The notes beneath the pieces are model-generated. The model did no database searches and was not told the DNA's origin. It saw nothing but the letters and a program-made list of their open reading frames with translations. A stretch of 64,000 nucleotides of DNA from contig NZ_CP139195.1 in the NCBI RefSeq assembly GCF_034057115.1, forward strand, positions 3,534,001 to 3,598,000, written 5' to 3'. Positions 19,429-34,590 of the stretch are shown one piece after another. Made by a program: the position numbers and the translations under genes. The first letter of the stretch is position 1, and the number at the start of each line of letters is the position of its first letter. This DNA comes from Pseudomonas sp. AN-1 (GTDB lineage Bacteria; Pseudomonadota; Gammaproteobacteria; Pseudomonadales; Pseudomonadaceae).

Positions 19429-20763
19429 ATGTCCGAGCAACCCATCGTCCGTCGCCGCCAAGTCAAGACCGGCATCAGCGATGCCCGCGCCAACAACGCC
19501 AAGACCCAGAGCCAGTACCAGCCGTACAAGGACGCCGCCTGGGGCTTCATCAACCACTGGTACCCGGCGCTGTTCACCCACGAGCTGGGCGAGGACCAGG
19601 TCGAGGGCATCCAGATCTGCGGCATCCCGATCGTCCTGCGCCGCGTCGACGGCAAGGTGTTCGCCCTCAAGGACCAGTGCCTGCACCGCGGCGTGCGCCT
19701 GTCCGAGAAGCCGATGTGCTTCAACAAGAGCACCATCTCCTGCTGGTACCACGGTTTCACCTTCGACCTGGAGAGCGGCAAGCTGGCGACCATCGTCGCC
19801 AACCCGGACGACAAGCTGGTCGGCACCACCGGCATCACCACCTACCCGGTGCACGAGGTCAACGGCATGATCTTCGTGTTCGTCCGCGAGGACGACTTCC
19901 CGGACGAGGACGTGCCGCCGCTGTCCTCCGACCTGCCGTTCCGCTTCCCGGAGAACAGCGACCGCTTCCCGCACCCGCTGTGGCCGGCCTCGCCGAGCGT
20001 GCTCGACGACAACGCCGTGGTGCTCGGCATGCACCGCACCGGCTTCGGCAACTGGCGGATCGCCTGCGAGAACGGCTTCGACAACGCGCACATCTTCGTC
20101 CACAAGGACAACAGCATCGTCCACGTCAACAACTGGGTGCTGCCGCTCGGCCTGCTGCCGGTCGGTGACGACGCCATCCAGCTGGTCGAGGACGACAACG
20201 GCCCGAAGGGCATGATGCAGATGATGTTCACCGAGAACTGGCAGCCGGTGCTGGAGAACGAGGAACTCGGTCTCAAGGTCGACGGCGTCAACGGCCGCTA
20301 CTACCGCACCTCGGTGGTGCTGCCGGGCGTGCTGATGGTGGAGAACTGGCCGCAGGACCACGTGGTGCAGTACGAGTGGTACGTGCCGATCACCGACGAC
20401 ACCCACGAATACTGGGAAGTCCTGGTGCGCGTGTGCAACACCCCCGAGGAGCGCGCCAAGCACGAGTACCGCTACGAGACCGTGTACAAGCCGCTGTGTC
20501 TGCACGGCTTCAACGACTGCGACCTGTACGCCCGCGAGGCGATGCAGAACTTCTACGCCGACGGCACCGGCTGGGACGACGAGCAACTGGTGGCCACCGA
20601 CATCTCGCCGATCACCTGGCGCAAGCTGTCCTCGCGCTGGAACCGCGGCATCGCCAAACCCGGCCGCGGCGTGCAGGGCTCGGTCAAGGATCTCAGCCTG
20701 ATCTTCAAGCAGACCGCCGACGGCCACCGCCCGGGCTACAAGGTCAAGAAGATCGAAGAGTAA
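19429..20763 (+). CDS. oxoO: 2-oxo-1,2-dihydroquinoline 8-monooxygenase, Rieske oxygenase component
   Basis: 444 residues. The Rieske [2Fe-2S] ligands are Cys84-x-His86 and Cys105-x2-His108 (CLH, CWYH). The mononuclear iron site is in ENGFDNAHIFVH, with His221 and His225, the same numbers I recall for the crystallised OxoO of P. putida 86; overall length and the N-terminal VRRRQVKTGISDARANNAKT region also agree with that protein. It hydroxylates 2-oxo-1,2-dihydroquinoline at C8, taking electrons from OxoR (27734-28762), which lies 7 kb away under a sister operator. Carbazole 1,9a-dioxygenase is the nearest alternative family. First gene of an operon with a hydrolase and an amidase. Confidence 0.87.
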   Translation: MSEQPIVRRRQVKTGISDARANNAKTQSQYQPYKDAAWGFINHWYPALFTHELGEDQVEGIQICGIPIVLRRVDGKVFALKDQCLHRGVRLSEKPMCFNKSTISCWYHGFTFDLESGKLATIVANPDDKLVGTTGITTYPVHEVNGMIFVFVREDDFPDEDVPPLSSDLPFRFPENSDRFPHPLWPASPSVLDDNAVVLGMHRTGFGNWRIACENGFDNAHIFVHKDNSIVHVNNWVLPLGLLPVGDDAIQLVEDDNGPKGMMQMMFTENWQPVLENEELGLKVDGVNGRYYRTSVVLPGVLMVENWPQDHVVQYEWYVPITDDTHEYWEVLVRVCNTPEERAKHEYRYETVYKPLCLHGFNDCDLYAREAMQNFYADGTGWDDEQLVATDISPITWRKLSSRWNRGIAKPGRGVQGSVKDLSLIFKQTADGHRPGYKVKKIEE

Positions 20764-20826
20764 GTCCGCTTCGCAGTCCGGCGCGCGCCCCTCGCGCCGG
20801 GCTGCGGGCAACCGGGAGCCTGTCGC

Positions 20827-21690
20827 ATGCATAACGACGTCTTATCTCGCAGCCATTTCGTCACCGTGGATGGCGTGCGCCTGCACTACCGTATGGTCGA
20901 CGGCCCGGCGGGCAGCCTGCCGGTGATCTTCACCCACGGCGGCGGCCCCGGCAGCACCGCCTGGAGCAATTTCCGCCTCAGCGCGCAGGCCTTCGCCGCC
21001 AACCACACCTGCTACTTCCTCGACTTCGCCCAGTACGGCGGCTCCGACATGGTGCCGGTCGAGGGGCCGGCGCTCGCCTGGCACGCGCGCAAACTGCTGG
21101 GCTTCATGGACGCGCTGGGCATCCCGCGCGCCCATCTGGTCAACCAGTCGTTCGGCGGCTGCGTGGCGACCCGCTTCGCCGCCGACCATCCCGAGCGGGT
21201 CGGCCGCCTGGTCATGATCGGCTCGCAGCCGGTGGCGCGCGGCGTGCTGCAGCCGCTGCCGCTGTTCAGCAAGCATGCCGCGACCCTGATGAGCGACTAC
21301 TACTTCGCCGGCGGCGGACCGAGCCTGGCGAAGATGCGCGAGCTGATCTGCCGCTACGAGCTGCACGACGACGCCAAGCTCGACGAGGAGACCCTGCGCC
21401 TGCGCTACGAGGCCAGCGCCAACCCGGCGCTGCTCGAGCTGCTCAACACCCCCGGCGCCTTCGGCGAGTGGGAGGACCTGACCGCGGTGTTCGCCTGCGT
21501 GCAGGCACCGACGCTGATCCTCTGGGGCCTGCACGACTGGTTCGGCGGCATCGACGTGCCGATGCTGATGCTCAACCGCTTCGCCGACGCGCGCCTGCAC
21601 GTCATGGGCAACGCCGCCCACCACCTGCAGAGCGAGTGCCCGGACGAATTCAACGCCGTGGCGACGGCCTTCATCGGAGGCTACGCATGA
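20827..21690 (+). CDS. alpha/beta hydrolase in the oxoO operon
   Basis: 287 residues of the C-C hydrolase/haloalkane dehalogenase-like group. The oxyanion motif HGGGPGSTAW (about 38-47), nucleophile elbow NQSFGGC (Ser about 106), acid in GLHDWFGG and His in GNAAHHLQSE (about 266) are visible, so a working serine hydrolase is expected. The next gene overlaps it by 4 bp (ATGA), so it is translationally coupled to the amidase. In this operon it might open the lactam or lactone ring after 8-hydroxylation; this is inferred from context alone. It differs from the two meta-cleavage hydrolases at 4295 and 33299. Confidence 0.8.
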   Translation: MHNDVLSRSHFVTVDGVRLHYRMVDGPAGSLPVIFTHGGGPGSTAWSNFRLSAQAFAANHTCYFLDFAQYGGSDMVPVEGPALAWHARKLLGFMDALGIPRAHLVNQSFGGCVATRFAADHPERVGRLVMIGSQPVARGVLQPLPLFSKHAATLMSDYYFAGGGPSLAKMRELICRYELHDDAKLDEETLRLRYEASANPALLELLNTPGAFGEWEDLTAVFACVQAPTLILWGLHDWFGGIDVPMLMLNRFADARLHVMGNAAHHLQSECPDEFNAVATAFIGGYA

Positions 21691-23090
21691 ACACTCCCAG
21701 CGATCTGCACTACCTGGAGATGCACGAGCTGTCGCTGCTGATCCGTACGCGCAAGCTGTCGCCGGTCGAGGTCGCCGAGGCCCAGCTGGCGCGCATCGAA
21801 CGCCTCGACGGCGCGCTGCACAGCTACGCCCACGTGGCGGCCGAGCAGGCCATGGCGCAGGCGCGCCAGGCCGAACAGGAGCTGATGCGCGGCCAGTGCC
21901 GCAGCCCGCTGCACGGCATCCCGCTGGCAGTGAAGGACCTGTTCCACACCGCCGGCATCCCCACCGCGGCGGGCATGGCGATCCATCGCGAATTCATCCC
22001 CAAGGAAGACGCCACCGTGGTGGCGCGCCTGCGCGAGGCGGGCAGCGTGCTGCTCGGCAAGCTGCAGATGACCGAGGGCGCCTTCGCCACCCATCACCCG
22101 GCGTTCGCCGCGCCGGTCAATCCGTGGGGCGCTGGGCACTGGGCCGGCGCCTCGTCCAGCGGCTGCGGCGTGGCCACCGCCGCCGGGCTGTGCTACGCCG
22201 CGCTGGGCACCGACAGCGGCGGCTCGATCCGCTTCCCCTGCGCGGCCAACGGGCTGACCGGCCTCAAGCCGACCTGGGGGCGGGTCAGCCGCCACGGCGC
22301 CTTCGAGCTGGCCGCCAGCCTCGACCACGTCGGGCCGCTCACCCGCAGCGCGCGCGACGCGCTGTTCCTGCTGTCGACCATCGCCGGCCACGATCCGCTG
22401 GACCCCACCTCGCTGCCCAGCGTGTGCCTGGAGATCCCCGGCATCGAGGAGTCGTTCCACGGCCTGCGCATCGGCGTCGACGAGGCCTGGCTGAGCGACG
22501 GCGTCGACGAGGAGATCGTCGAGGCCCTCGACGAGGTGCTGACCATGATCCGCGCCGGCGGCGGCAGCCTGGTGCGCGTGCGCATGCCGGACACCCGCGC
22601 GGTGAGCGCCAACTGGGAGAAGCACTGCGGCGTGCAGACCGCGGTGGCGCACGCCGCCACCTACCCGAGCCGCGCCGGCGAATACGGCCCGGCGCTGAGC
22701 CGGCTGATCGACGGCGGCCGCGCACTGTCCGGCATGGACTACCAGCGCGTGCTGCTCGACGCGCAGCGCTTCACCGGCGAACTGGAGTGCGTGCTGGGCG
22801 AGGTCGACCTGCTGCTCGCCCCGGTGCAGCCGTATGCCGCGCCGACCCACGCCCAGCTCGGCGCGCTGGCCCAGGACCCGGAAGCCAACCGCCGGCTGAT
22901 CCAGTTCACCGCGCCGTTCAATGTCAGCGGCCACCCGTGCCTGAGTGTGCCGATCGGCTTCACCACCGGCGGCCTGCCGATCGGCGGCCAGTTCATCGCC
23001 GGCAAGGGCGGCGAGGGCGTGCTGTGCCGCGCTGGCATGGCGCTGCAGAAGGTCAGCGACTGGCATCGGGTGCGTCCGGCCGGGCTATAA
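21687..23090 (+). CDS. amidase signature family hydrolase 1
   Basis: 467 residues. The Ser-cisSer-Lys triad is intact: Lys in LAVKDLF (about 79), cis-Ser in GASSSGCG (about 154) and the nucleophile Ser in TDSGGSIRFP (about 178). It starts with ATG 21687, overlapping the hydrolase stop. Amidase signature enzymes cleave amide or C-N bonds; a lactam or amide released from the quinolone ring is a plausible substrate here. A second amidase (30874-32322) is only distantly similar, so two different amide bonds or substrates may be handled. The AraC regulator 2 follows after 68 bp and may be co-transcribed. Confidence 0.87.
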   Translation: MNTPSDLHYLEMHELSLLIRTRKLSPVEVAEAQLARIERLDGALHSYAHVAAEQAMAQARQAEQELMRGQCRSPLHGIPLAVKDLFHTAGIPTAAGMAIHREFIPKEDATVVARLREAGSVLLGKLQMTEGAFATHHPAFAAPVNPWGAGHWAGASSSGCGVATAAGLCYAALGTDSGGSIRFPCAANGLTGLKPTWGRVSRHGAFELAASLDHVGPLTRSARDALFLLSTIAGHDPLDPTSLPSVCLEIPGIEESFHGLRIGVDEAWLSDGVDEEIVEALDEVLTMIRAGGGSLVRVRMPDTRAVSANWEKHCGVQTAVAHAATYPSRAGEYGPALSRLIDGGRALSGMDYQRVLLDAQRFTGELECVLGEVDLLLAPVQPYAAPTHAQLGALAQDPEANRRLIQFTAPFNVSGHPCLSVPIGFTTGGLPIGGQFIAGKGGEGVLCRAGMALQKVSDWHRVRPAGL

Positions 23091-23158
23091 CGGCCGGGCC
23101 GGGGCCGGCGCAGGGGGCGTAGCATTCAGGTTGCCAACAGGGGGGAGGGGCGCCGGTC

Positions 23159-24133
23159 ATGAATGCCACCAACCGGGTCGAAGAGCTGTGTTCGCAGGAT
23201 CCCGACGAGACCCGCCAGCTGGTGGCGTCGGTGTTCTGCGAGCATCGCCTGGAGGTCCGCCAGGCGCCGGACGGCCTCGACTACCGGCATCATCACCTGC
23301 GCACCGGGCACCTCAGTTTCAGCCGCATGGGCTATGGCGCCGAGGTGCGCGTCTCGCCCGGCGAGCTGGGCTCGTTCTATCTGGTGCAGCTGCCGCTGGC
23401 CGGGCATGACCGGCAGCGGGTCGGGCGGCACGAGCTGCTCAGCGACAGCCGCTGCGGCAGCGTGCACGGGCCGGACGAGCATCTGGCGATGCACTGGAGC
23501 GCCGACTGCCACAAGCTGGTCGTGCGCATCGAGCGGGGCGCGCTCGAACAGCATGCCGTCGCGCTGCTTGGCTGCGCGCTGCACGATCCGCTGACCTTCG
23601 CCAACCCGATGGATCTGGGCTGCGCCCACGGCGCCGCCTGGGGCCACACCGCCCGGCAGCTGTTCGACCAGCTGCAGCGCGCCCCGCAGCTGTTCGAGCT
23701 GCCGCTGGTGCGCACGCAGTTCGAGCAGACGCTGATGACCACCCTGCTGGCCTGGCAGCCCAACAGCCTGAGCGCACGGCTGGGCGAGCCGGCGGCCAGG
23801 GTACTGCCGCGCCACGTCAAGCTGGCGGTGGACTTCATGCGCGCCCATCCCGAGCAGTCGATCAGCGTGGCCAGCCTGGCGGCCATCAGCGGGGTCAGCG
23901 GCCGCTCGCTGTACAACGGTTTCCAGCAGTTCCTCGGCGTCAGCCCCATGCGCTACCTGCGCGATCTGCGCATGGAGCGGGTGCGCGAGGATCTGCTCGA
24001 TCCGCGCCAGCCGCGCAGCGTCACCGCGATCGTCACCCGCTGGGGCTTCTTCCAGCTGGGGCGGTTCGCCATCGAATACCGCCGGCGCTATGGCGAGACA
24101 CCCCGGGAGACCTTGCTCAAGGCCCGCATCTAG
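23159..24133 (+). CDS. AraC/XylS-family activator 2
   Basis: 324 residues with the same domain order as the regulator at 17297. The N-terminal ligand domain spans about 1-215. The C-terminal double helix-turn-helix includes ISVASLAAISGVSGRSLYNGF and VTAIVTRWGFFQLGRFAIEYRRRYGETP. The RSLYN recognition helix and HLGRF-like second motif are close to XylS, which fits the TGCA-N6-GGNTA operators nearby. The start follows GGGGGAGGGG. Placed directly after the oxoO-hydrolase-amidase operon, it is a good candidate for an OxoS-like regulator, but its paralogue at 17297 is equally possible. A terminator follows. Confidence 0.85.
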   Translation: MNATNRVEELCSQDPDETRQLVASVFCEHRLEVRQAPDGLDYRHHHLRTGHLSFSRMGYGAEVRVSPGELGSFYLVQLPLAGHDRQRVGRHELLSDSRCGSVHGPDEHLAMHWSADCHKLVVRIERGALEQHAVALLGCALHDPLTFANPMDLGCAHGAAWGHTARQLFDQLQRAPQLFELPLVRTQFEQTLMTTLLAWQPNSLSARLGEPAARVLPRHVKLAVDFMRAHPEQSISVASLAAISGVSGRSLYNGFQQFLGVSPMRYLRDLRMERVREDLLDPRQPRSVTAIVTRWGFFQLGRFAIEYRRRYGETPRETLLKARI

Positions 24134-24141
24134 TGCCTTTT

Positions 24142-24161
24142 GCCGCCGTTAGGGCGGCATT
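24142..24161 (+). terminator. probable terminator after AraC/XylS regulator 2
   Basis: Hairpin GCCGCC-GTTA-GGGCGGC followed by ATTTCT. It is short but right after the stop codon. The following stretch to 24307 is relatively AT-rich and holds a perfect dyad GACTGC-ACCC-GCAGTC (24261-24276) and a TGATAAT (24288-24294) that could be a -10 box; no TGCA-N6-GGATA operator was found there. Confidence 0.6.
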
Positions 24162-24307
24162 TCTGCCCGAAAATGGTGCGTTTCATATTTCTGCAATTTC
24201 CGCATGCTGGCTGCGGGAACTGCATATTCGCCCCGCACGCCTTGCTCCACATTGGCAGCCGACTGCACCCGCAGTCCTTGGCAAACCTGATAATGGAGCT
24301 GGAGCGC

Positions 24308-25531
24308 ATGAGAAAGATAACGATCGTTGGCGCCGGACAGGCCGGCCTGCAACTGGGCATCGGCCTGCTCAAGCAGGGCTACGCCGTCACCCTGATCTCC
24401 AACCGCACCGGCGCGGAGATTGCTGCCGGCCGGGTGCTGTCCAGCCAGTCGATGTACGACATGGCACTGGAATTCGAACGCGAGCTGGGGCTGTCGTTCT
24501 GGGACGACAGCTGTCCGCCCACCACGGGCGTGCACCTGCGCGCCGGCAACGAGCAGGGGCTGCTGATCGACTGGCGGGCGCGCATGCCGGCTCCCGGCCA
24601 GTCGGTCGACCAGCGCATCAAGATGCCGCGCTGGATGGCCGAGTTCGAGCGCCTCGGCGGCCGCCTGGTGATCGAGGAGGCGGGCCTCGCCGAGCTGGAG
24701 CGCTACGCCGCCGCCAGCGACCTGGTGATAGTCGCCAGCGGCAAGGGCGAGATCGGCAAGCTGTTCGAGCGCGACGCCGAGCGCAGTGTGTTCGACCGTC
24801 CGCTGCGCACCATCTCGCTGACCTACGTGCACGGCATGCTGCCGCGCGAGGACTACAGCGCGCTGAACATCAGCGTCAATCCGGGCATCGGCGAGTACGT
24901 CAACTTCCCCTGCCTGACCCACAGCGGCGCGGGCGACATCATCAACCTCGAGTGCGTCGAAGGCGGGCCGATGGACCGCTGGGACGAGGTCACCACGCCC
25001 GAGCAGCACCTGGCCCTGGCCGTCGAGCTGATCGAGCGCTTCTTCCCCTGGGAAGCCTGGCGCTGCCGCGACCTGCGCCTGACCGACGAACTCGGCACCC
25101 TGGTCGGCCGCGTCACCCCCACCGTGCGCAAGCCGATCGGCTACCTGCCGTCCGGGCGCACCGTGCTGGGCATGGCCGACGTGCTGGTGCTCAACGACCC
25201 GATCACCGGACAGGGTTCGAACAACGCCAGCAAGTGCGCCAACATCTACATGAACGCCATCCTCGAACAGGACGGCGCGGCGTTCGACGATGCCTGGAAG
25301 ACGGCGACCTTCGAGCGCTACTGGGACTACGCGCAGTGGGTCGCGCGCTTCACCAACACCCACCTGCTGCCGCTGACCGAGCCGGTGCTCAAGGTGCACG
25401 GCGCCTGCGCCGACCGGCCGGAGCTGGCCGCGACCTTCGCCAATGCCTTCAACGACCCGAAGATCCTCACGCCCTGGTACTACGACTCCGCCGCGGCGGA
25501 TCGCTTCATCGCCTCGTTCGCCGCTGCCTGA
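24308..25531 (+). CDS. StyA-like FAD monooxygenase (styrene/indole monooxygenase family)
   Basis: 407 residues, close to the length of StyA. The dinucleotide motif IVGAGQAGLQLG is at the N-terminus and a PITGQGSNNASKC stretch (about 297-309) forms the usual flavin-contact region near the C-terminus. Start ATG 24308 (MRKITIVGAG) chosen because family members begin directly before the FAD motif; upstream in-frame starts add unrelated sequence. The flavin reductase at 26761 would supply reduced FAD, as StyB does. The enzyme could epoxidise or hydroxylate a bicyclic aromatic such as indole or a quinolone. No phenylacetaldehyde-forming isomerase (StyC) is near, so classical styrene use is not supported by this block. 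Confidence 0.83.
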   Translation: MRKITIVGAGQAGLQLGIGLLKQGYAVTLISNRTGAEIAAGRVLSSQSMYDMALEFERELGLSFWDDSCPPTTGVHLRAGNEQGLLIDWRARMPAPGQSVDQRIKMPRWMAEFERLGGRLVIEEAGLAELERYAAASDLVIVASGKGEIGKLFERDAERSVFDRPLRTISLTYVHGMLPREDYSALNISVNPGIGEYVNFPCLTHSGAGDIINLECVEGGPMDRWDEVTTPEQHLALAVELIERFFPWEAWRCRDLRLTDELGTLVGRVTPTVRKPIGYLPSGRTVLGMADVLVLNDPITGQGSNNASKCANIYMNAILEQDGAAFDDAWKTATFERYWDYAQWVARFTNTHLLPLTEPVLKVHGACADRPELAATFANAFNDPKILTPWYYDSAAADRFIASFAAA

Positions 25532-25542
25532 AGGACGCCGTC

Positions 25543-26745
25543 ATGCTCGAACACAACCACAAGCGGCACTCTGCAGCCGCGTTCGGCGTCCTTGCCGCGT
25601 GCCTGCTGCCCCTGCAGATCGCCCAGGCGACCCAGGGCACCATGCCCCATGGCTACGGGGTCAAGTCCGAAGGCATGGGCGGGGTGGTCATCGCCCTGCC
25701 CCAGGATGCCCTGGCCGGCGCCTCCAACCCGGCCGGCATGGTACTGGTCGGCGACCGCCTGGATCTCGGCGTGGCCCTGCTCAAGGTCGACAACGGCGCG
25801 GAGTTCGCCGGCAGCACCGTCAGCGGCGTCGAGGACCGCGACCTCTACGTCATCCCGCAGTTCGGTGCCAACCGGATGCTCGACGAGCACAGCAGCCTCG
25901 GCCTGTCGCTGGTCGGCAACGGCGTGGGCACCGCCTATGGCGACGACGCCAACTTCGGCGGGCTGCAGGAGCCGGGGGCCGAGTTCCAGCAGATGGTCGC
26001 CACCCTCAGCTACGCCCGCCAGCTGGACGAGCGGCACAGCGTCGGCCTGGGCCTGATCCTGGTGCGCCAGGTGCTGGACATCGACGGCACCGCCAGTATC
26101 GGCCTGCCGCAGGGGCGCGACGAGGCCCACGGTGCCGGCCTGCGCATTGGCTGGATCGGCCGCCTGACCCCGGAGCTGAGCCTCGGCGCCAGCTATTCCA
26201 CCCGCGGCTACATGTCGAAGATGGACAAGTTCGACAGGCTGCTGGCCGAAGGCGGCGACCTCGACCTGCCGTCCACCTGGGCCCTCGGCGTGGCCTGGCA
26301 GCGCGGGCCGCTGACCCTGGCCGCCGACGTGCAGAAGATCCTCTGGAGCGACGTCCGCTCGCTCGGCAACCCCGGCGTGGGCCGTGCCACGGGCGCGCCG
26401 GGCGACTCCGACGGGCCGGGCTTCGGCTGGCGCGACCAGACGGTCTGGCGGGTCGGCGCCGCCTGGACGCTGAACGAGCGGCTGACCCTGCGCGCCGGCT
26501 ACAACGACGCCAACCAGTTGCTCGACAGCCGCGATACCTACCTGGGCATCCTCGCGCCGTCGGCCAACCACCGCCACGTGACGGCCGGCGCCAGCTACCG
26601 GCTGGGCAACGGTCACGAGCTGTCGCTGGCCTACGCCCGCTCGTTCAAGGACAAGGTGCACGGCGACGGTCCCGGGCCGAATGCCGTCACCTCGCCCTAC
26701 ATGGGCCAGCACTGGCTGTCCGTGGGCTATGGCGTGGACTTCTGA
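25543..26745 (+). CDS. FadL/TodX/OmpP1-type outer-membrane hydrocarbon porin
   Basis: 400 residues. A signal peptide ends about residue 29 (LPLQIAQATQG). The mature N-terminus MPHGYGVKSEGMGGVVIALPQD with ASNPAGM matches the FadL family hatch and NPA-like motif, and the C-terminus ends in a strand with terminal Phe (SVGYGVDF). Such porins take up hydrophobic aromatics or fatty acids through the outer membrane. It lies 11 bp after the StyA-like gene and 15 bp before the flavin reductase, so transport and oxidation of the same hydrophobic substrate are likely linked. The frame is open far upstream, but only the part from 25543 is supported. Confidence 0.85.
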   Translation: MLEHNHKRHSAAAFGVLAACLLPLQIAQATQGTMPHGYGVKSEGMGGVVIALPQDALAGASNPAGMVLVGDRLDLGVALLKVDNGAEFAGSTVSGVEDRDLYVIPQFGANRMLDEHSSLGLSLVGNGVGTAYGDDANFGGLQEPGAEFQQMVATLSYARQLDERHSVGLGLILVRQVLDIDGTASIGLPQGRDEAHGAGLRIGWIGRLTPELSLGASYSTRGYMSKMDKFDRLLAEGGDLDLPSTWALGVAWQRGPLTLAADVQKILWSDVRSLGNPGVGRATGAPGDSDGPGFGWRDQTVWRVGAAWTLNERLTLRAGYNDANQLLDSRDTYLGILAPSANHRHVTAGASYRLGNGHELSLAYARSFKDKVHGDGPGPNAVTSPYMGQHWLSVGYGVDF

Positions 26746-26760
26746 GCAGGAGCGACAGCG

Positions 26761-27252
26761 ATGATCGAAAGCAGACAATTGCGCCAGGCGCTCGGCCAGT
26801 TCGCCACCGGCGTCACCATAGTCACCACCCGCGACGGCGAGGGCCAGCCCATCGGCGTCACCGCCAGCAGCTTCAACGCGGTATCGCTGGAGCCGCCGCT
26901 GGTGCTGTGGAGCATCGGCCGGAACGCCTTCAGCTACCCGGCGTTCGCCGAGGCCGGGCATTTCGCCGTGCACGTGCTGGACGCCGGGCAGCGCGGGCTG
27001 TCCGACCGTTTCGCCCAGGCCGCGACGGACAAGTTCGCCGGCCTCGAGCTCGGCAGCGGCCTCGGCGAGGTGCCCCTGCTGCCCGGCTGCCTGGCGTCGT
27101 TCGAGTGCAGCACCGAGCACCGCTACGAGGGCGGCGACCACCTGATCCTGGTCGGCCGGGTGCTGCGCATGGAAGTGGCGCGCAGCGCGGCGCAACCCCT
27201 GCTGTTCCACCGCGGGCGCTATGCGGAACTGGTCTGCCCGGAAACCGCGTGA
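26761..27252 (+). CDS. flavin reductase (StyB-like)
   Basis: 163 residues, flavin reductase domain of the short-chain type. GQFATGVTIVTT near the N-terminus and ASSFNAVSLEPPLVLW (about 39-54) are the family's FMN/FAD-binding motifs, followed by FAVHVLDAGQ. It would reduce FAD or FMN with NADH and pass it to the StyA-like oxygenase encoded two genes upstream. Start ATG 26761 follows GCAGGAGCGACAGCG. Its stop is 32 bp before operator D. No terminator is seen directly after it; the first is at 27464. Confidence 0.88.
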   Translation: MIESRQLRQALGQFATGVTIVTTRDGEGQPIGVTASSFNAVSLEPPLVLWSIGRNAFSYPAFAEAGHFAVHVLDAGQRGLSDRFAQAATDKFAGLELGSGLGEVPLLPGCLASFECSTEHRYEGGDHLILVGRVLRMEVARSAAQPLLFHRGRYAELVCPETA

Positions 27253-27284
27253 CGCCGCCTGGGCCGTCTGCCGCGGGCGTTTCC

Positions 27285-27346
27285 TGCGGTGGCGGGATAA
27301 GCGCGCAACCCATTGGAGTGCCGGCACCGTCCCCGCTTCCTAAGAT
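27285..27346 (+). promoter_or_regulatory. XylS/OxoS-type operator-promoter D (no protein gene behind it)
   Basis: TGCG-GTGGCG-GGATA (27285-27299), 6 bp, CAAC-CCATTG-GAGTG (27306-27320), 20 bp, TAAGAT -10 (27341-27346). The geometry is the same as at sites A, B, C and E. Its CATTGGAG proximal half-site is shared with oxoO's site C. It lies 388 bp before oxoR, which has its own site E; what follows D is a structured stretch ending in a terminator. Confidence 0.78.
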
Positions 27347-27352
27347 CGGGCC

Positions 27353-27492
27353 ATGGCAGCGAAGACTCGCTGCCCGGCCTGGTCCGGCCTGGCCTGGCCG
27401 GGCCCGGTCGCCGACCGGCTCCAGTTTCGTCCCGACAGTCTCGCGCTGACTGTCCCATGTTTGCCCGTGCCGTTGCGGCACGGGTTTTTTTT
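27353..27492 (+). ncRNA. candidate small RNA of the oxo regulon
   Basis: Predicted 5' end about 7 nt after the -10 box of operator D, 3' end at the T-run of an intrinsic terminator: about 140 nt. Hairpins in order: GGCAGCGA-AGAC-TCGCTGCC (27355-27374), CCGGTC-GCC-GACCGG (27404-27418), GACAGTC-TCGCGCT-GACTGTC (27434-27454, perfect 7-bp stem) and the terminator. The only frame, from ATG 27353, has no ribosome site and runs through the terminator. Alternatives: an attenuator leader for oxoR, or an operator left orphaned by a deletion, with the terminator belonging to the flavin reductase gene. Target and function are unknown. Confidence 0.5.
27464..27492 (+). terminator. strong intrinsic terminator
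   Basis: Nine-bp perfect stem CCCGTGCCG / CGGCACGGG with loop TTG followed by eight T. It is the best terminator in the catabolic region. It ends whatever is transcribed from operator D and any read-through from the flavin reductase gene, before promoter E. Confidence 0.9.
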
Positions 27493-27561
27493 GCCCGCGA
27501 TTCGCCTTCCAGCCCCCGTGTCTGCTGCCCGTCGCGATATCCGACCACGGCAGCAGGAATT

Positions 27562-27623
27562 TGCACTGGCGGGATAAGCCGGTAACTCGCGGGAGCGCTC
27601 GGCCGCTACCCGCTTCCTATGAT
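27562..27623 (+). promoter_or_regulatory. XylS/OxoS-type operator-promoter E (oxoR operon)
   Basis: TGCA-CTGGCG-GGATA (27562-27576), 6 bp, TAAC-TCGCGG-GAGCG (27583-27597), 20 bp, TATGAT -10 (27618-27623). Predicted transcription start about 27630, about 105 nt before oxoR. Half-site, spacing and -10 match sites A and B. Confidence 0.83.
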
Positions 27624-27733
27624 CGGGGCAAGTCAGCAGTAACCGGGCGGCCGTTCCAGCCGCCATCCAATCCAGGCGCCCAGCACGCCACCGCTGCTGG
27701 TCGCCGATGCCTGTAAGACGGAGGCAACCGATC

Positions 27734-28762
27734 ATGAACGACGCAATCCACCAGGTCACCGTGAATTTCGCCGACGGCGTCAGCCGCAGCTTCGCCGTGC
27801 CCGCCGAGGCCAGCATCCTCGATGCCGCCATCAAGGCGGAGATCCCGCTGCTCTACCAGTGCCGCTCGGGCGGCTGCTCCAGCTGCATGGCCCAGCTCGC
27901 CGACGGCGACGCGCGCACCCGTCCCGGCGCCAGCTCGTCACTGCTGGCCAGCGAGTACGCCGCCGGCCAGCGCCTGCTGTGCCTGTGCCAGGCGCAGTCG
28001 GACTGCACCTTCGAGGTGCCCTACGGCAGCGAGGTCGGTTCCAGCGCGGCGAAGGAAGTGCACGCCTTCATCGATTCCATCGAGCGCATCGCCGTCAACG
28101 TGGTGCGCCTGACCCTGGAGCTGGCCGACGGCGACTGGCTGGAGTTCCGCCCCGGCCAGTTCGTGCAGATCGAGGTGCCCGGCTTCGGCGTGCTGCGCAG
28201 CTACTCGCCGTCCAGCACCCTAGCCGACCTGCCCCGGCTGCAGCTGCTGGTGCGCCTGCTGCCGGGTGGGGCGATGTCCAGCTACCTGGAGGAGAAGGCC
28301 CAGGTCGAGGACGTGCTGACTCTGCGCGGCCCCTACGGCGCGTTCTTCCTGCGCGAGGAGCACCGCCGCGCGCCGCACATCTTCGTCGCCGGCGGCACCG
28401 GCCTGGCGCCGATCCTGTCGATGATCGACACCCTGCGCCAGAACGGCGGCAAGAAGCCGCCGATGCTGCTCAGCTTCGGCTGCGCCACCCCGGAGGTGCT
28501 GTTCGGCCTCGACGACATCGAGCTGCGCCAGCAGTGGCTGCCGAGCCTGGAGGCGCGCATCTGCGTCGACCGCGAGCCGACCGAGGGCCTGCACCACGGC
28601 AGCCCGGTCAGCGCCCTGCGCGAGGGCGATGTGGTCAGCCCGGACACCGTCGCCTACCTGTGCGGCCCGCAGCCGATGATCGATGCCGCCACCGCGCGGC
28701 TGGTCGAGCTGGGCGTCGCCCCGCAAAACATCTTCAGCGAACAGTTCGTGGCCAGCCACTGA
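27734..28762 (+). CDS. oxoR: 2-oxo-1,2-dihydroquinoline 8-monooxygenase reductase component
   Basis: 342 residues. The N-terminal plant-type [2Fe-2S] ferredoxin domain has Cys43-x4-Cys48-x2-Cys51 and a fourth Cys at 83 or 85. The FAD domain has RSYSPSS (about 156) and the NAD domain GGTGLAP and CGPQPM. It passes electrons from NADH to the Rieske cluster of OxoO. Start ATG 27734 follows GGAGG at a spacing of 9; nine residues further upstream are open but unlikely. It heads a tightly packed seven-gene operon under operator E. Similar reductases serve benzoate and carbazole oxygenases, so the oxoR name rests on the presence of oxoO and the shared operator. Confidence 0.85.
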   Translation: MNDAIHQVTVNFADGVSRSFAVPAEASILDAAIKAEIPLLYQCRSGGCSSCMAQLADGDARTRPGASSSLLASEYAAGQRLLCLCQAQSDCTFEVPYGSEVGSSAAKEVHAFIDSIERIAVNVVRLTLELADGDWLEFRPGQFVQIEVPGFGVLRSYSPSSTLADLPRLQLLVRLLPGGAMSSYLEEKAQVEDVLTLRGPYGAFFLREEHRRAPHIFVAGGTGLAPILSMIDTLRQNGGKKPPMLLSFGCATPEVLFGLDDIELRQQWLPSLEARICVDREPTEGLHHGSPVSALREGDVVSPDTVAYLCGPQPMIDAATARLVELGVAPQNIFSEQFVASH

Positions 28763-28772
28763 GGAGCCTCCC

Positions 28773-30101
28773 ATGCAACCGACCGTGTCCGTGCCGTTCT
28801 CGGCCGAGCAGATGAAGTGGTACGAGCAGGCCTGCGCGCGCATCGACCCCAAGCGCCTGCAGTACCTGTTGTTCGACCTGACCAACATCCACAGCCCGAC
28901 CGGCGCGGCCGGCGCGGCCAGCCAGTTCATGGCCCGCCACCTGGAGTCGGTCGGCCTGTCGGCGCGCTACCAGCCGATGAGCGCGACCAGCGGCAACGTG
29001 CTGGCCGAGCGCCGCGGCAGCGGCGGCGGTGCCAGCGTGCTGCTCTACGCGCCGATCGACACCCACCTGGAGGAGGGCGACGAGGCCCAGGAGATCCTCA
29101 CCGGCAAGGCGCCCGAGGCCGACATGCAGATCACGGCGCGGATGATCGACGACTGGGTGTTCGGCCTCGGCGCTTCCAACCCCAAGGGCATGGTCGCGAC
29201 CCTCACCGAGGTGGCCACCGCGCTGATCGAGGCCGAGGTGCCGCTGGTCGGCGACCTGCTGGTCGGCATGGCCGACGGCGGCATGCCGGTGGACATTGCC
29301 GGACGCGATCACGCCGGCATGTCCAACGGCGTGTTCCACCTGCTCAATCGCGGCGGCTCGCCGGACTTCGCGGTGATCATGAAGCCGTGGAACTGGGTCT
29401 ACCACGAGGAGCCGGGCATGGCCTGGTTCAAGCTGCGCGTGCACGGCACCCTCGGCTACGCCGGCGTGCCGCGCGACATCCCGGGCTTCCGCAGCTCGGT
29501 GGTGCCGGCGGCCACGGTTATCCAGGAGCTGGAGCGCTGGATCATCGACTACGCCGAGCGCAACACCTCCGGGCAGATCAAGCCGCACGGCTGGATCGCC
29601 GGGGTGCGTGGCGGCGACGTGCAGCGTCCGGCCTTCCCCTCGGCGGTCACCGAGATCTTCTTCGACGTGCGCGTCAATCCGCGCAGCAGCCCGGCCGATG
29701 TGAAGGCGCAGTTCGCCGCCTTCGTCCGCGAGCTGCAGGCGCAGCGCCCCGAACTGGAGCTGGACTGGGAAATGTACGGCTCGGTGGCCGGCGGCAGCAC
29801 CGACCCGCAGAACTGGATCATCCAGTCGTGTCGGCGCGGCTGGGAGCACATCGAGCACCGTCCGCACGGCCAGGCCGACCTGCTCGGCGGGCAGACCGAC
29901 GGCGCCGCGCTGCGCCGCCTGGGCATCCCCACTGCGCGCATCGGCTGGCCGTGGCCGGCGCAGGGCGCGCCGCTGCCGGTGGCCGAGGGCCTCGGCGGCA
30001 TGGGCGCCACCTACATTCCCGACCTGATCCCCTGCGCGAAGAAGATCATGTACGCGCTGATCGACACCCTGACCCGCCCGCGCCACGAGCTGGGCCTGTG
30101 A
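28773..30101 (+). CDS. M20-peptidase-like protein with degenerate metal site
   Basis: 442 residues with the M20 zinc amidohydrolase layout, but the metal ligands are mostly missing. Motif 1, normally HxD, reads LLYAPIDTH (His to Pro, Asp kept). Motif 2, normally GxGxxDxKGG, reads GLGASNPKG (bridging Asp to Asn). Motif 3, normally DEE, reads MADGGMP (both Glu lost). The region of the last His reads GGMGATYIPD. The Asp in GGQTDGAA is kept. A classical two-zinc peptidase is therefore unlikely; it may use another mechanism, bind one metal differently, or be a binding/scaffold protein. Start ATG 28773 after GAGGAGCCTCCC, 10 bp from oxoR. A role in C-N bond handling is only suggested by context. 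Confidence 0.75.
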   Translation: MQPTVSVPFSAEQMKWYEQACARIDPKRLQYLLFDLTNIHSPTGAAGAASQFMARHLESVGLSARYQPMSATSGNVLAERRGSGGGASVLLYAPIDTHLEEGDEAQEILTGKAPEADMQITARMIDDWVFGLGASNPKGMVATLTEVATALIEAEVPLVGDLLVGMADGGMPVDIAGRDHAGMSNGVFHLLNRGGSPDFAVIMKPWNWVYHEEPGMAWFKLRVHGTLGYAGVPRDIPGFRSSVVPAATVIQELERWIIDYAERNTSGQIKPHGWIAGVRGGDVQRPAFPSAVTEIFFDVRVNPRSSPADVKAQFAAFVRELQAQRPELELDWEMYGSVAGGSTDPQNWIIQSCRRGWEHIEHRPHGQADLLGGQTDGAALRRLGIPTARIGWPWPAQGAPLPVAEGLGGMGATYIPDLIPCAKKIMYALIDTLTRPRHELGL

Positions 30102-30115
30102 GGAGCACCGCGACG

Positions 30116-30877
30116 ATGAGCAAGCGCATCAAGATGATCTTCCCGGTGCCGATGAGCGAGGCGACCCGCCCGCTGGTGGAGTCGCAGCTGCCGGCGGAGC
30201 TGATCCGCCCGGACATCGAGGTCAGCTTCGTCGGCGCCGGCCAGGTGCTGACCCTGGCCGACAGCTACTACGACATGGCGATCATGGAGCAGGCGGTGAT
30301 CGCCGCCGGCATCCAGGCCGAGGCGGAGGGCTTCGACGCGGTGTGCATCAACACCGTCAGCGACTCCGGTCTCGCCGCCCTGCGTTCGCGCCTGAGCATC
30401 CCGGTGCTGGCGCCGGGGCAGGGCGCCTTCCACCTGGCCAGCATGCTCGGCCACAGGTTCAGCATCCTGACCATGTGGCCGCGCTGGTTCCCGCTGTACC
30501 GCAAGACCCTCAAGGAGTACGGCCTGGAGTCGCGGCTGGCGTCGATCCGCGCGATCGACGTGCGCCCGGACACCGAGGCGCTGCTGCAGGGCAAGGAGGA
30601 AGTGGTGTTCGGCCGCCTGTTCGAGGAGGCCAAGCGCGCCATCGCCGAGGACGGCGCTGACGTGATCGTGCTCGGCTCGACCACCATGCACCAGTCGCAC
30701 GCCTTCCTCGCCGAGCGCCTGCCGGTGCCGGTGCTCAACCCCGGCCAGGTCGCCTACAAGCTCTGCGAGCTGTTCCTCGACCTGGGCCTGGCGCACAGCA
30801 AGTTCGCCTATCCGAGCCCCGAGGCGTTCAAGGACGCCGCCTTCGATTCCTTCTCCGCTACCGGGAGCCGCCCATGA
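30116..30877 (+). CDS. Asp/Glu/hydantoin racemase-like protein lacking both catalytic Cys
   Basis: 253 residues. The fold pattern fits the Asp/Glu racemase superfamily (also hydantoin racemase, maleate isomerase, arylmalonate decarboxylase). The two catalytic Cys positions read Thr (INTVSDSG, where hydantoin racemases have CFGDPG) and Ser (VLGSTTMH, where they have LGCAGM). One other Cys (VCIN) lies three residues before the first site. Racemisation by the two-Cys mechanism is thus unlikely; lyase, isomerase or hydrolase chemistry, or a binding role, are possible. It starts 14 bp after the M20-like gene and its stop overlaps the amidase start by 4 bp (ATGA). Confidence 0.75.
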   Translation: MSKRIKMIFPVPMSEATRPLVESQLPAELIRPDIEVSFVGAGQVLTLADSYYDMAIMEQAVIAAGIQAEAEGFDAVCINTVSDSGLAALRSRLSIPVLAPGQGAFHLASMLGHRFSILTMWPRWFPLYRKTLKEYGLESRLASIRAIDVRPDTEALLQGKEEVVFGRLFEEAKRAIAEDGADVIVLGSTTMHQSHAFLAERLPVPVLNPGQVAYKLCELFLDLGLAHSKFAYPSPEAFKDAAFDSFSATGSRP

Positions 30878-32322
30878 AACTGCCCGTGTTCGCGCAGGCC
30901 GCCTGCGCCACCGACCTGACCATCGCCGAGGCGCTCGACGCCCTGCGCAGCGGCCGCCTGAGCAGCCGCCAGCTGGTCGAGGCCTGTCTCGCCCGTGCCG
31001 AGGCCGCTCGCGAGCTGAACGTGTTCGTCACCCTCGACGCCGCCGGCGCGCTGGCCGCCGCCGATGCCGCCGACGCGGCGCGCCGTGCCGGCCTGCCGCT
31101 CAAGCCGCTGGCCGGCATCCCCATCGTGGTCAAGGACAACATCCACGCCGCCGGCCTGCCGGCCACCGCCGGCACCCCGGCGCTGGCCGACTTCGTGCCC
31201 GGCGAGGACGCGCCGAGCCTGCGCCCGCTGCGCGAGGCCGGCGCCATCGTGCTGGGCAAGACCAACATGCACGAGCTGGCCTTCGGCGCCACCGGTTACA
31301 ACCCGGCGTTCAACACCGGCGAGCTGCTCGGCGTGCGCAACCCCTACGACTTCACCCGCATCGCCGGCGGCTCGTCCTCCGGCAGCGCGGCGGCGCTGGG
31401 TGCACGCATGGCGCTGGCGGCGCTGGGCACCGACACCGGCGGCTCGATGCGCATCCCCTGCGCGCTGAACGGCTGCGCCTCGCTGCGCCCCAGCCACGGC
31501 CGCTACTCGGGGCGCGGGGTGATCCCCATCGCGCCGAGCCGCGACACCGTCGGGCCGATGGCGCTGTGCATGACCGACGTCGCCCTGCTCGACGGCCTGA
31601 TCAGCGGCGAGGCCGCGCTGCCGCCGGTGACCCTGGCCGGCCTGCGCCTGGGCATCGCGCCGGGCTTCTGGCGCGACCTCGACGCCGACACCCGCGCGGT
31701 CGCCGAGGCGGCGCTGGACAAGCTGCGCGCCGCCGGGGTGACCCTGGTGGAGGTCGGCGAGGAGCGCCTGCAGGAACTCACCCAGCCGATCGGCACGCTG
31801 GTGGTGATCCACGAGGCCCGTCCGGCGATGCAGGCCTGGCTGCGCGAGCAGGGGCCGGGCATCGACATCGACGAACTGGCCCGCGGCATCGCCAGCCCGG
31901 ACGTGCAGGCGATCTACCAGCAGCTGGTGCTGCCGAGCCAGGTGCCCACGGCTGAAGGCCTGGTCGACTCCGCGCCGCTGTATGCAGAGGCCATGGCCAG
32001 CGGCCGTCCGGCGCTGCAGGCGCACTACGCCGAGCTGTTCGAACGCCATGCGCTGGACGCCTTCATCTTCCCGACCACCCCGGTGGTGGCGCCGGCGGCC
32101 GGCCCCGAGGTCAACGAGCCGGCCTGCTTCGAGCGGCTGATCAGCAACACCGAGCCGTCGGCCAGCGCCGGCCTGCCGGGCATCCAGCTGCCGGCCGGCC
32201 TCGGCGCCGCCAGCGGCCTGCCGGTCGGCCTGGAGCTGGACGGCCCGGCCGGCAGCGACCGCCGCCTGCTGGCCATCGGCATCGCCCTGGAGGCGGTGCT
32301 GGGCCGCATCCCCCGCGCCTGA
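30874..32322 (+). CDS. amidase signature family hydrolase 2
   Basis: 482 residues, similar in layout to indoleacetamide hydrolase and mandelamide hydrolase. The triad is complete: Lys in VVKDNIH (about 89), cis-Ser in GGSSSGSA (about 168) and Ser in TDTGGSMRIP (about 192). It is translationally coupled to the racemase-like gene. It could hydrolyse an amide formed from the N-heterocycle, perhaps releasing ammonia; the substrate is not known. Twenty bp separate it from the extradiol dioxygenase gene. The other amidase in the window (21687) has a different active-site context (GASSSGCG). Confidence 0.87.
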   Translation: MKLPVFAQAACATDLTIAEALDALRSGRLSSRQLVEACLARAEAARELNVFVTLDAAGALAAADAADAARRAGLPLKPLAGIPIVVKDNIHAAGLPATAGTPALADFVPGEDAPSLRPLREAGAIVLGKTNMHELAFGATGYNPAFNTGELLGVRNPYDFTRIAGGSSSGSAAALGARMALAALGTDTGGSMRIPCALNGCASLRPSHGRYSGRGVIPIAPSRDTVGPMALCMTDVALLDGLISGEAALPPVTLAGLRLGIAPGFWRDLDADTRAVAEAALDKLRAAGVTLVEVGEERLQELTQPIGTLVVIHEARPAMQAWLREQGPGIDIDELARGIASPDVQAIYQQLVLPSQVPTAEGLVDSAPLYAEAMASGRPALQAHYAELFERHALDAFIFPTTPVVAPAAGPEVNEPACFERLISNTEPSASAGLPGIQLPAGLGAASGLPVGLELDGPAGSDRRLLAIGIALEAVLGRIPRA

Positions 32323-32342
32323 AACCATTGGAGAGCAGACAG

Positions 32343-33302
32343 ATGATCAAGGCACTGAGTTACGTGGTGGTGCACACCCCGCACCTGGCGGAGTGGCTGA
32401 AGATGGCCGGCGAGCACATCGGCATGCAGGTCGAGATCGTGCAGCCGGGCGAGTGTGCGCGGCTGCGCGTGGACGAGAAGGCCCAGCGCTTCGTGCTGCA
32501 GGCCGTCGACGGCGAGTCCTCGATGGTCATGGGCCTGGAGGCCAGCGATGCGGCCGCCTTCGCCCAGGCACGCCAGGCGCTGCAGGAGGCCGGCTACCAG
32601 ACCCGCCAAGGCAGCCGCGCCGAGTGCGAGCTGCGCGCAGTGGACGACCTGTTCCACTTCGACGATCCGGACGGCTGCCGCGTCGAGGTCGCCTTGGGCC
32701 TGCAGGATGCCGCCACGCCCTTCGTCCCCGGCCGCCCGCTGGGCGGCTTCCGCACCGGCGAGCTGGGCCTCGGCCACGTCGCCTTCATCACCCCGAAGTT
32801 CGAGGAGATGTGCCACCTGTACAAGGAGGTGCTGCAGTTCCGCCTCAGCGACTACACCAGCGTGCCGTTCCGCGTCGAGTTCCTCCACGTCAACCCGCGC
32901 CACCATACCCTGGGCATCGCCTACACCGGCGGACCGCGCAAGCTGTACCACCTGATGATCGAGTACAACGACTTCGACGACCTCGGTCGCGCCCATGACC
33001 TGGCGCTGGAGAATCCCGACTCCATCGGCGTCACCTTCGGCCGCCACATCAACGACCACATGACCTCGTTCTACCTGAAGAACCCCGACGACTGGATGCT
33101 CGAGCTGGGCTGGGCGGGACGCACCATCGGCCCCGACTGGCAGGTCGAGGAGCTGTCCGGCATGAGCCTGTGGGGTCACGACCGCACCTGGCTGCCGGCC
33201 GACAAGCGCGAGCATGCCCGGCAGATTCTCAAGGACCTGTCCAAGCGCGGGCTGCGCGCCCCCGTAGTAACCAACAGCCAAACCGCCAAGGTGAGCCAAT
33301 GA
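32343..33302 (+). CDS. type I (VOC-fold) extradiol ring-cleavage dioxygenase
   Basis: 319 residues made of two vicinal-oxygen-chelate domains, as in biphenyl-2,3-diol dioxygenases. Fe ligands are expected at His in GLGHVAFI (about 145), His in the NPRHHTLGIAY/YHLMIEY region and Glu in DDWMLELGW (about 260), all present. Start ATG 32343 follows GGAGAGCAGACAG; the TTG 15 bp upstream is less likely. It would open a catechol-type ring, followed by the C-C hydrolase encoded next with a 4-bp overlap. Since MhpB (class III) is also present, this enzyme probably acts on a different catechol, for example a bicyclic or N-containing intermediate; inference. Confidence 0.87.
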   Translation: MIKALSYVVVHTPHLAEWLKMAGEHIGMQVEIVQPGECARLRVDEKAQRFVLQAVDGESSMVMGLEASDAAAFAQARQALQEAGYQTRQGSRAECELRAVDDLFHFDDPDGCRVEVALGLQDAATPFVPGRPLGGFRTGELGLGHVAFITPKFEEMCHLYKEVLQFRLSDYTSVPFRVEFLHVNPRHHTLGIAYTGGPRKLYHLMIEYNDFDDLGRAHDLALENPDSIGVTFGRHINDHMTSFYLKNPDDWMLELGWAGRTIGPDWQVEELSGMSLWGHDRTWLPADKREHARQILKDLSKRGLRAPVVTNSQTAKVSQ

Positions 33303-34156
33303 CGACCCTCAACCCCGCCGCCTCCCCGGAGGTGGCCAACAGCCTCCAGGTCGGCGACTGCACGATCAACTACCACGACCGCGGCCAGGGCGAGCCTATC
33401 CTGCTGATCCACGGCTCCGGTCCCGGCGTCACCGCCTGGGCCAACTGGCGCGGGGTGATCCCGGCGCTCGCCGAGAAGGCGCGGGTGATCGCCCCCGACA
33501 TGCTCGGCTTCGGCTACACCCGCTGCCCGATGGATCGTCCGCTCGATCCGCAGGCCTGGGTGGCGCAGCTGGTCGGCCTGCTCGATGCGCTGGACATCCC
33601 CAGGGTGGCGGTGGTCGGCAACTCGTTCGGCGGCGCCATCGCCCTGGCCTTCGCCCTGCGCCATCCCGAGCGGGTCAGCCGCCTGGTGCTGATGGGCTCG
33701 GCCGGCCTGTCGTTCCCGCTCACCGAAGGGCTGGACAAGGTGTGGGGCTACCAGCCGTCGCTGCAGGCGATGCGCGAGCTGATGCAGGTGTTCGCCTGGG
33801 ACCACGGCATCATCACCGACGACCTGGTGCGCATGCGCTACGAGGCGAGCATCCGCGACGACGTGCAGAGCCGCTTCGCCCAGCTGTTCCCGGCGCCGCG
33901 CCAGCAGGGCATCGAGATGCTCGCGGTGGACGAGGCCGCGCTGCGCCAGCTGCCGCAGCCGACCCTGATCATCCATGGCCGCGACGACCAGGTGATCCCG
34001 CTGGAGGCTTCCGAGCGGCTGCTCCGCCTGATCCCTCACGCCCAGCTGCACGTGTTCGGCGAGTGCGGCCACTGGGTGCAGATCGAGAAGGCCGCCGACT
34101 TCACCCGACTGCTCATCGACTTCCTGTGCGCGGCGCGCGAGGAGAACCCGGCATGA
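33299..34156 (+). CDS. meta-cleavage product (C-C bond) hydrolase
   Basis: 285 residues, alpha/beta hydrolase of the XylF/CmtE/BphD group. HGSGPGVTAWANW (about 39-51), nucleophile elbow GNSFGGA (Ser about 108), acid in GRDDQVIPL (about 226) and His in ECGHWVQIE (about 258) are complete. It starts inside the dioxygenase stop (ATGA overlap), and its own stop overlaps the next gene, so the three are translationally coupled. The pairing with a VOC dioxygenase gives the operon a complete ring-opening module separate from mhpBC. Confidence 0.87.
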   Translation: MTTLNPAASPEVANSLQVGDCTINYHDRGQGEPILLIHGSGPGVTAWANWRGVIPALAEKARVIAPDMLGFGYTRCPMDRPLDPQAWVAQLVGLLDALDIPRVAVVGNSFGGAIALAFALRHPERVSRLVLMGSAGLSFPLTEGLDKVWGYQPSLQAMRELMQVFAWDHGIITDDLVRMRYEASIRDDVQSRFAQLFPAPRQQGIEMLAVDEAALRQLPQPTLIIHGRDDQVIPLEASERLLRLIPHAQLHVFGECGHWVQIEKAADFTRLLIDFLCAAREENPA

Positions 34157-34590
34157 ACAAGGAAACCATCCGCGGACGCTGGAACATCCTGTCTTGGGAA
34201 CAGCTGTACGACGACGGCCGCGTCGTCCATCCGATGGGCACCGAGCTGGAAGGCTTCATCGAGTACGGCCCCTACGGCATGTTCTGCGTGATCGCCCGCA
34301 AGGACCGCGAAGCCTTCACCACGGGCGGCCAGTGGTCGGCCAGCGACGCCGAGAAGGCCGCCGCCTACGGCAGCTACCTGACCTATGCCGGGCCCTACGA
34401 CGTCGAGGGCGACACCGTCCGCCACCATGTGCGCCACAGCCTGTTCCCCAACTGGGAAGGCGGCTCGCAGAAGCGCGTCGCGGTGCTGGACGGCGGCGTG
34501 CTGTCGCTCACCGCGCGCCTGGAGGAGGGCACCCCGGAGGCGCGCACCGCCAAGCTGGTGTGGACCCGCGCGTTGCCGGCGCAGGGCTGA
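34153..34590 (+). CDS. lipocalin-like domain protein
   Basis: 145 residues matching the small lipocalin-like family found in aromatic and polyketide clusters: an N-terminal IRGRWNILSWEQ with the conserved GxW, GFIEYGPYGMFCVI, then a YLTYAGPYDVEGDTVRHHV strand pair and SLFPNWEG. No signal peptide, so cytoplasmic. Such proteins may bind hydrophobic intermediates or act as isomerases or cyclases; nothing more can be said. Last gene of the oxoR operon, coupled to the hydrolase by a 4-bp overlap, and convergent with the ACP-like ORF 1 bp away. Confidence 0.75.
   Translation: MNKETIRGRWNILSWEQLYDDGRVVHPMGTELEGFIEYGPYGMFCVIARKDREAFTTGGQWSASDAEKAAAYGSYLTYAGPYDVEGDTVRHHVRHSLFPNWEGGSQKRVAVLDGGVLSLTARLEEGTPEARTAKLVWTRALPAQG

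Follow-up and report, generated by a model that had tools for sequence, protein, structure and literature searches.

Which proteins exchange nitrogen for oxygen when bacteria convert 2-oxo-1,2-dihydroquinoline to 2,3-dihydroxyphenylpropionate? The question is raised by a catabolic region of Pseudomonas sp. AN-1, analysed here in a window of 64,000 nucleotides (contig NZ_CP139195.1, positions 3,534,001 to 3,598,000) of the complete 4.61-Mb genome. The region carries genes for OxoO and OxoR, the components of 2-oxo-1,2-dihydroquinoline 8-monooxygenase, and for the Mhp enzymes, which start at 2,3-dihydroxyphenylpropionate. The 8-hydroxycoumarin route between the two compounds was described from metabolites decades ago. 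In this route, 2,8-dihydroxyquinoline is converted to 8-hydroxycoumarin with release of NH4+, and then to 2,3-dihydroxyphenylpropionate (PMC9029321). The search of the literature, outside which the paper on the P. putida 86 cluster fell, found no gene assigned with sequence evidence to the nitrogen-to-oxygen step. A 2025 paper names 'hdo', a 2,8-dihydroxyquinoline dioxygenase, with no sequence evidence in its accessible part (PMC11945285). The pathway is already known; the candidate genes for the nitrogen-to-oxygen step and the operator are new as far as the searched literature shows.

A preliminary description of this DNA had placed OxoO, OxoR, the Mhp enzymes, two amidases, a serine hydrolase, M20-like and racemase-like proteins, an SDR and, probably, an MDR reductase in one regulon. 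Gene calling and translation found every gene it named; the SDR and MDR genes and mhpBCDFE lie outside the interval 19429-34590 that it described. Its account is incomplete in that a StyA-like cassette and a second ring-cleavage pair are missing from it. We consider it rather probable that the region is a regulon for the complete degradation of 2-oxo-1,2-dihydroquinoline via 8-hydroxycoumarin, by the steps proposed below. Coordinates are window positions, and features lie on the + strand unless stated otherwise.

OxoO, its companions and a shared operator

OxoO (19429..20763) aligns end to end (residues 1-444) with PDB 1z01, the Rieske oxygenase of 2-oxo-1,2-dihydroquinoline 8-monooxygenase from P. 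putida 86, with 938.8 bits and 85.8% identity. It contains the Rieske motif (C84LH86, C105WYH108) and the mononuclear-iron motif (D218NAH221IFVH225). By this similarity, 2-oxo-1,2-dihydroquinoline is well supported as its substrate. OxoR (27734..28762) is a linked [2Fe-2S]/FAD/NAD reductase of the BenC/MmoC type. OxoO of P. sagittaria (L006) and that of the window share 99% identity. A genome of the same species, G392, carries oxoO twice, with products 86% and 82% identical to OxoO of the window, although its M20-like gene is 98% identical; this points to a replaced allele or a duplication of oxoO. Two copies are also present in L023, L066, G528 and G536.

When 84,980 species genomes were searched for OxoO, 79 related loci were obtained, 49 of them with full flanks, in Pseudomonas, Stutzerimonas, Massilia, Thauera, Zoogloea, Azoarcus, Cupriavidus, Paraburkholderia, sphingomonads and others. 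Among the full-flank loci, the amidase is present in 48, OxoR in 47 and the M20-like protein in 46, so that OxoO, OxoR, the amidase and the M20-like protein make up a core that hardly varies across Gamma-, Beta- and Alphaproteobacteria. The MDR reductase and a cupin are each found in 30 of the 49, the racemase-like protein in 26 and a type I dioxygenase (at least 45% identity) in 15. The arrangement is compact in two Cupriavidus loci (L042, L044), where the cupin gene, mdr and mhpBDFEC are divergent from oxoO, oxoR and the M20-like and amidase genes.

Co-occurrence was examined in 298 Pseudomonadaceae genomes, 16 of which have OxoO. All 16 carry the M20-like gene on the contig of oxoO; in all, 17 of the 298 genomes have this gene (hypergeometric p ~1e-25, a statistic that ignores shared ancestry), and the copy in the single OxoO-negative genome is more distant and comes from an 81%-complete assembly. 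An MhpB orthologue at least 70% identical is present in 16/16 OxoO-positive genomes vs 1/24 of the OxoO-negative genomes examined. A class-wide sample of 369 genomes contained no true OxoO orthologue except the window's, and co-occurrence there is uninformative. At L086 (G574:C22), in a genome in which OxoO was not detected, an M20-like gene (50% identical, same altered metal positions) adjoins an SDR gene (72% identical); the locus may encode a related pathway that starts with a different enzyme.

The Mhp genes are mhpB (3312..4268), for a LigB-type 3-carboxyethylcatechol 2,3-dioxygenase (NCBIfam PRK13370 equivalog); mhpD (5212..6006), for 2-keto-4-pentenoate hydratase; mhpF (6039..6974), for acetylating acetaldehyde dehydrogenase; and mhpE (6986..8017), for 4-hydroxy-2-oxovalerate aldolase. 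The products of all four score over the NCBIfam cut-offs. In the position of mhpC is the gene of a BphD-type meta-cleavage hydrolase (4295..5164) that scores below its cut-off. On inspection, a small globin-like open reading frame (8106-8498), with no NCBIfam match at E 1e-20, directly follows mhpE. At L133 (G453:C64), mhpBCDF with an MhpB of the OxoO-type clade (81%) is found in a genome without OxoO, and the operator is absent nearby.

The grouping into one regulon is borne out beyond adjacency. An operator-like sequence, TGCNNTGNCGGGATAR-N14-GGAGNG, is present in four intergenic regions: upstream of mhpB (3083..3118), of the SDR gene (18398..18433), of oxoO (19304..19339) and, twice, of oxoR (distal, 27285..27320; proximal, 27562..27597). 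Its first half, as in the site before mhpB, fits what we take to be a XylS-type half-site, TGCA-N6-GGNTA. The template was derived from the window sites, the rest of the genome and the related loci being the independent tests. With up to two mismatches, the genome has five matches, all in this region, and none to the reversed pattern. In the related loci, matches precede oxoO (45), oxoR (25), mdr (8), ycf48 (6) and araC2 (3); the operator is found before oxoO in about half of the 79 loci, and the reversed template gives two matches overall. Because the operator is absent elsewhere in the genome and recurs in the related loci, the term regulon is justified, the mhp operon included. The putative operator is likely read by an AndR-like regulator of the AraC/XylS type (17297..18301), which would switch the units on together. 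One of these is the series oxoR, M20-like, racemase-like, amidase 2, dioxygenase, hydrolase and lipocalin, with intergenic spacing of -4 to 20 bp. The link between the 2-oxoquinoline and Mhp routes drawn in the preliminary description is upheld by the identity of OxoO, the shared operator and the co-occurrence of OxoO, the M20-like protein and MhpB.

Candidates for the middle steps

OxoO and OxoR, assigned by close orthology, would hydroxylate C8 of 2-oxo-1,2-dihydroquinoline. Amidase 1, an amidase-signature protein (21687..23090), may then open the lactam to form (Z)-3-(2-amino-3-hydroxyphenyl)acrylate. The M20-fold protein (28773..30101), a candidate aromatic deaminase by its kinship to 5-nitroanthranilate aminohydrolase, would exchange the aromatic NH2 for OH, the conjugated acrylate serving as the electron sink, after which the product would close to 8-hydroxycoumarin, ammonia being released. 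By comparison with HcdE and HcdF of P. mandelii 7HK4, the MDR reductase (15252..16349) would saturate C3-C4, and either the cupin (16427..16972), a candidate HcdF-like hydrolase, or the alpha/beta (serine) hydrolase (20827..21690), a candidate lactonase, would open the dihydrocoumarin. MhpB-F, assigned by the family cut-offs, would carry 2,3-dihydroxyphenylpropionate to central metabolism. Everything past OxoO/OxoR and the Mhp enzymes we infer. The acrylate double bond present after lactam opening could take up electrons for the attack of water at the amino-bearing carbon, and the exchange is therefore placed before the reduction.

The M20-like protein matches no Pfam family, the M20 domain included, at E 0.001. 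Among PDB sequences, that of 5-nitroanthranilate aminohydrolase is the closest (profile E 8e-30), the next protein having E 0.0045. The same enzyme is the best fold match of the predicted model, which is a confident one (mean predicted local distance difference test score 84.8); Z is 38.0 over 401 residues, and the second-best match has 32.7. By this analogy the M20-like protein is a strong candidate for the nitrogen-to-oxygen step from 8-hydroxy-2-oxoquinoline to 8-hydroxycoumarin.

The MDR protein had been named among the possible enzymes of the middle steps, and it stands as a candidate C3-C4 reductase by its match, in family and arrangement, to a characterised hydroxycoumarin reductase pair consisting of an MDR protein and a cupin. 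It has the MDR domains, and on inspection the usual catalytic-zinc motif is absent. A cupin gene is found beside mdr in 37 of the 38 loci listed, some 250-300 bp downstream in the alignments; in the window its reading frame may start at 16427, 77 bases past mdr. HcdE of P. mandelii 7HK4, an MDR protein whose gene adjoins that of a cupin, reduces hydroxycoumarins and not 2-quinolones (PMC7913881), which fits an exchange that precedes the reduction.

Several points weigh against the proposed pathway, the main uncertainty being the M20-like protein. At the positions that we assign to metal binding by what is generally known of M20 enzymes, every orthologue examined has lost the ligands: His is replaced by Pro94, Glu by Gly170, Glu by Lys204 and the last His by Tyr414. 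The aminohydrolase-like proteins of L087 and L088 retain them, as does the solved enzyme over the covered part of its sequence. The M20-like family and 5-nitroanthranilate aminohydrolase have in common an Asn at the bridging-metal position. Since the ligands are replaced, the metal-dependent mechanism is not simply transferable, and the protein must work differently if it is the exchanger. The sequence points either to a reaction without the usual metal, or to a newly formed site, or to another function. As nitrogen-to-oxygen exchanger the protein gains specific support from its nearest solved relative. An ordinary metallopeptidase was rejected on the missing Pfam M20 match and the replaced ligands. 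Many residues are invariant, among them Asp96-x-His98 and Glu212/Glu213 and also those at the replaced metal positions. Only tentatively can it be suggested that the protein is an aromatic aminohydrolase, either metal-independent or metallated in another way, acting on 2-amino-3-hydroxycinnamate, without nitro activation, at a site rebuilt from Lys204, Tyr414, Asp96-x-His98 and Glu212/Glu213, and that it represents a general bacterial solution to the nitrogen-to-oxygen exchange in 2-quinolones.

The remaining points against the pathway are that the first-stage substrate is uncertain, quinoline 2-oxidoreductase (Qor) being absent; that the genome co-occurrence probabilities ignore shared ancestry; and that the MDR protein is likened to HcdE by family and arrangement, not by sequence. 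Furthermore, the window's genome carries seven genes of the old yellow enzyme (OYE) family, and it is XenA, an unrelated OYE, that carries out the reduction in P. putida 86 (PMC5519977). Of the middle pathway, which the preliminary description had called unassigned, the nitrogen-to-oxygen step is so in the literature searched, and the reduction of 8-hydroxycoumarin was already assigned in that strain.

The entry compound and alternative explanations

Qor was not found in the genome, in which the only large subunit of a molybdenum hydroxylase is that of xanthine dehydrogenase; the single MoCoBD_1 protein is XdhB, which scores over its cut-off. Therefore quinoline probably does not serve as the entry compound, and entry via Qor was dropped. 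In the OxoO-carrying genome G424, where no molybdenum hydroxylase match exists, Qor does not feed the pathway either. Between amidase 1 and oxoR lies a cassette consisting of a second AraC regulator (araC2, 23159..24133), a group E flavin monooxygenase of the StyA/IndA type (24308..25531), an OmpP1/FadL/TodX outer membrane protein (25543..26745) and the flavin reductase partner of the monooxygenase (26761..27252). The cassette may supply the lactam from indole-like compounds or from another substrate. The StyA-like protein has its nearest structures in indole monooxygenases of the VpIndA1 type, which it matches over its full length with 490 bits, and scores under the NCBIfam StyA equivalog cut-off (202 vs 550 bits). 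The four genes araC2-styA-ompP1-flvR change place together, adjoining mhpB in G444 (L129) and lying elsewhere in G424 (L130).

The regulon might instead serve oxindole-type lactams derived from indole or skatole. The StyA-like protein would epoxidise C2-C3, the epoxide would give oxindole, OxoO would hydroxylate next to the nitrogen, and the amidase and M20-like proteins would lead to 2,3-dihydroxyphenylacetate or a relative. The kinship of the StyA-like protein to VpIndA1 is in favour of this, as is the restriction of its relatives at least about 62% identical to OxoO-positive genomes (5 of the 298 Pseudomonadaceae genomes, 5/5 with OxoO; p ~2e-7, again ignoring shared ancestry). So are the position of the cassette beside mhpB in G444, its isolated position in G424, an OxoO-carrying genome with no molybdenum hydroxylase match, and operator matches before araC2 or styA in L019, L032, L033 and L079; skatole epoxidised by a group E enzyme should yield 3-methyloxindole (PMC13101512). 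However, the cassette is absent from most OxoO loci, the window cassette has no operator upstream at up to three mismatches, oxindole requires neither an ene-reductase nor a propionate-type MhpB, and OxoO shares 86% identity with an enzyme known to act on 2-oxoquinoline. We regard this alternative as unlikely. A cut of the ring before deamination, in which a type I extradiol dioxygenase would act on an aminophenol-type intermediate and the nitrogen would be lost later, appears more improbable still. The oxoR operon does hold a suitable BphC-like dioxygenase of the VOC type (32343..33302) and a BphD/HsaD-like alpha/beta hydrolase (33299..34156), but the intermediates in the literature are 8-hydroxycoumarin and 2,3-dihydroxyphenylpropionate (PMC9029321), and the dioxygenase is found in just 15 of the 49 full-flank loci.

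The route may also be the known one with other middle enzymes, the exchange being carried out by amidase 2, the racemase-like protein or the SDR (18518..19276), or being spontaneous, and the M20-fold protein being accessory or non-catalytic. The missing canonical metal ligands would suit such a role, and the M20-like gene shares its operon with the genes for the racemase-fold protein (30116..30877) and amidase 2 (30874..32322, over the NCBIfam cut-off for indoleacetamide hydrolase). About half of the full-flank loci lack orthologues of these two, whereas 46 of 49 have the M20-like protein, whose many invariant residues, the replaced metal positions included, are as in active enzymes; this explanation, too, seems to us improbable. 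The racemase-like protein matches PF01177 (116.5 bits) and has the fold of allantoin racemase (Z 29.2), and its catalytic Cys positions are Thr/Ser80 and Ser188 in 20 orthologues (T80 and S188 in the window). The role as a racemase had to be given up, since none of the orthologues examined retains either catalytic Cys; a maleate-isomerase-like cis-trans isomerase is unlikely for lack of the same residues.

The racemase-like protein, amidase 2 and the second dioxygenase-hydrolase pair do not fit into the proposed degradation of 2-oxo-1,2-dihydroquinoline via 8-hydroxycoumarin. The oxoR operon encodes this pair and a Lipocalin_5 protein (34153..34590) even though mhpB and a gene for a meta-cleavage hydrolase are already present. 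A block encoding a YCF48-like protein, an MMPL transporter, DUF1302 and DUF1329 proteins (8716..15134), resembling an envelope export or uptake system, lies upstream of mdr-cupin-araC1-oxoO in most Pseudomonas loci and likely has a transport role. On inspection of the gene calls, catabolic genes of the phenylacetate (paa) type are present on the opposite strand (42467-55034, -).

By the comparison of loci, the candidates for the missing step come down to two proteins, the amidase and the M20-fold protein, both near-constant companions of OxoO. If the proposed pathway is true, the latter would be a biocatalyst for the conversion of anilines to phenols, and marker genes and an operator sequence would be available for tracing 2-quinolone degraders.

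Comparison with known systems

The nearest solved relative of the M20-like protein, 5-nitroanthranilate aminohydrolase (PDB 5k8m-5k8p), is similar over about 400 residues, yet only 22% identical. It converts an aromatic NH2 to OH, the type of reaction that the pathway needs. Its Arg289 aligns with Ala287 of the M20-like protein, which has an invariant Arg285 nearby. The StyA-like protein has full-length similarity and an adjacent flavin reductase in common with the group E monooxygenases VpIndA1 and StyA. It forms a separate group, in which the relatives from OxoO-positive Pseudomonadaceae are 62-86% identical to the window's, whereas those of other Pseudomonadaceae are 51-55% identical.

The hcdDEFG genes for 7-hydroxycoumarin catabolism in P. 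mandelii 7HK4 (PMC7913881) share with the OxoO region the arrangement of an MDR and a cupin gene, the likeness being one of family and arrangement. No DUF1185 (HcdD) gene was seen, and the substrate here would be 8-hydroxycoumarin. Another close parallel is the quinoline pathway of P. putida 86 (Qor, OxoO/OxoR, XenA). Qor is absent from the present genome, which has XdhB only, and the locus carries the MDR-cupin pair, not an OYE, as the candidate reductase. OxoO is shared at 85.8% identity, and the proposed route via 8-hydroxycoumarin to 2,3-dihydroxyphenylpropionate would be common to both.

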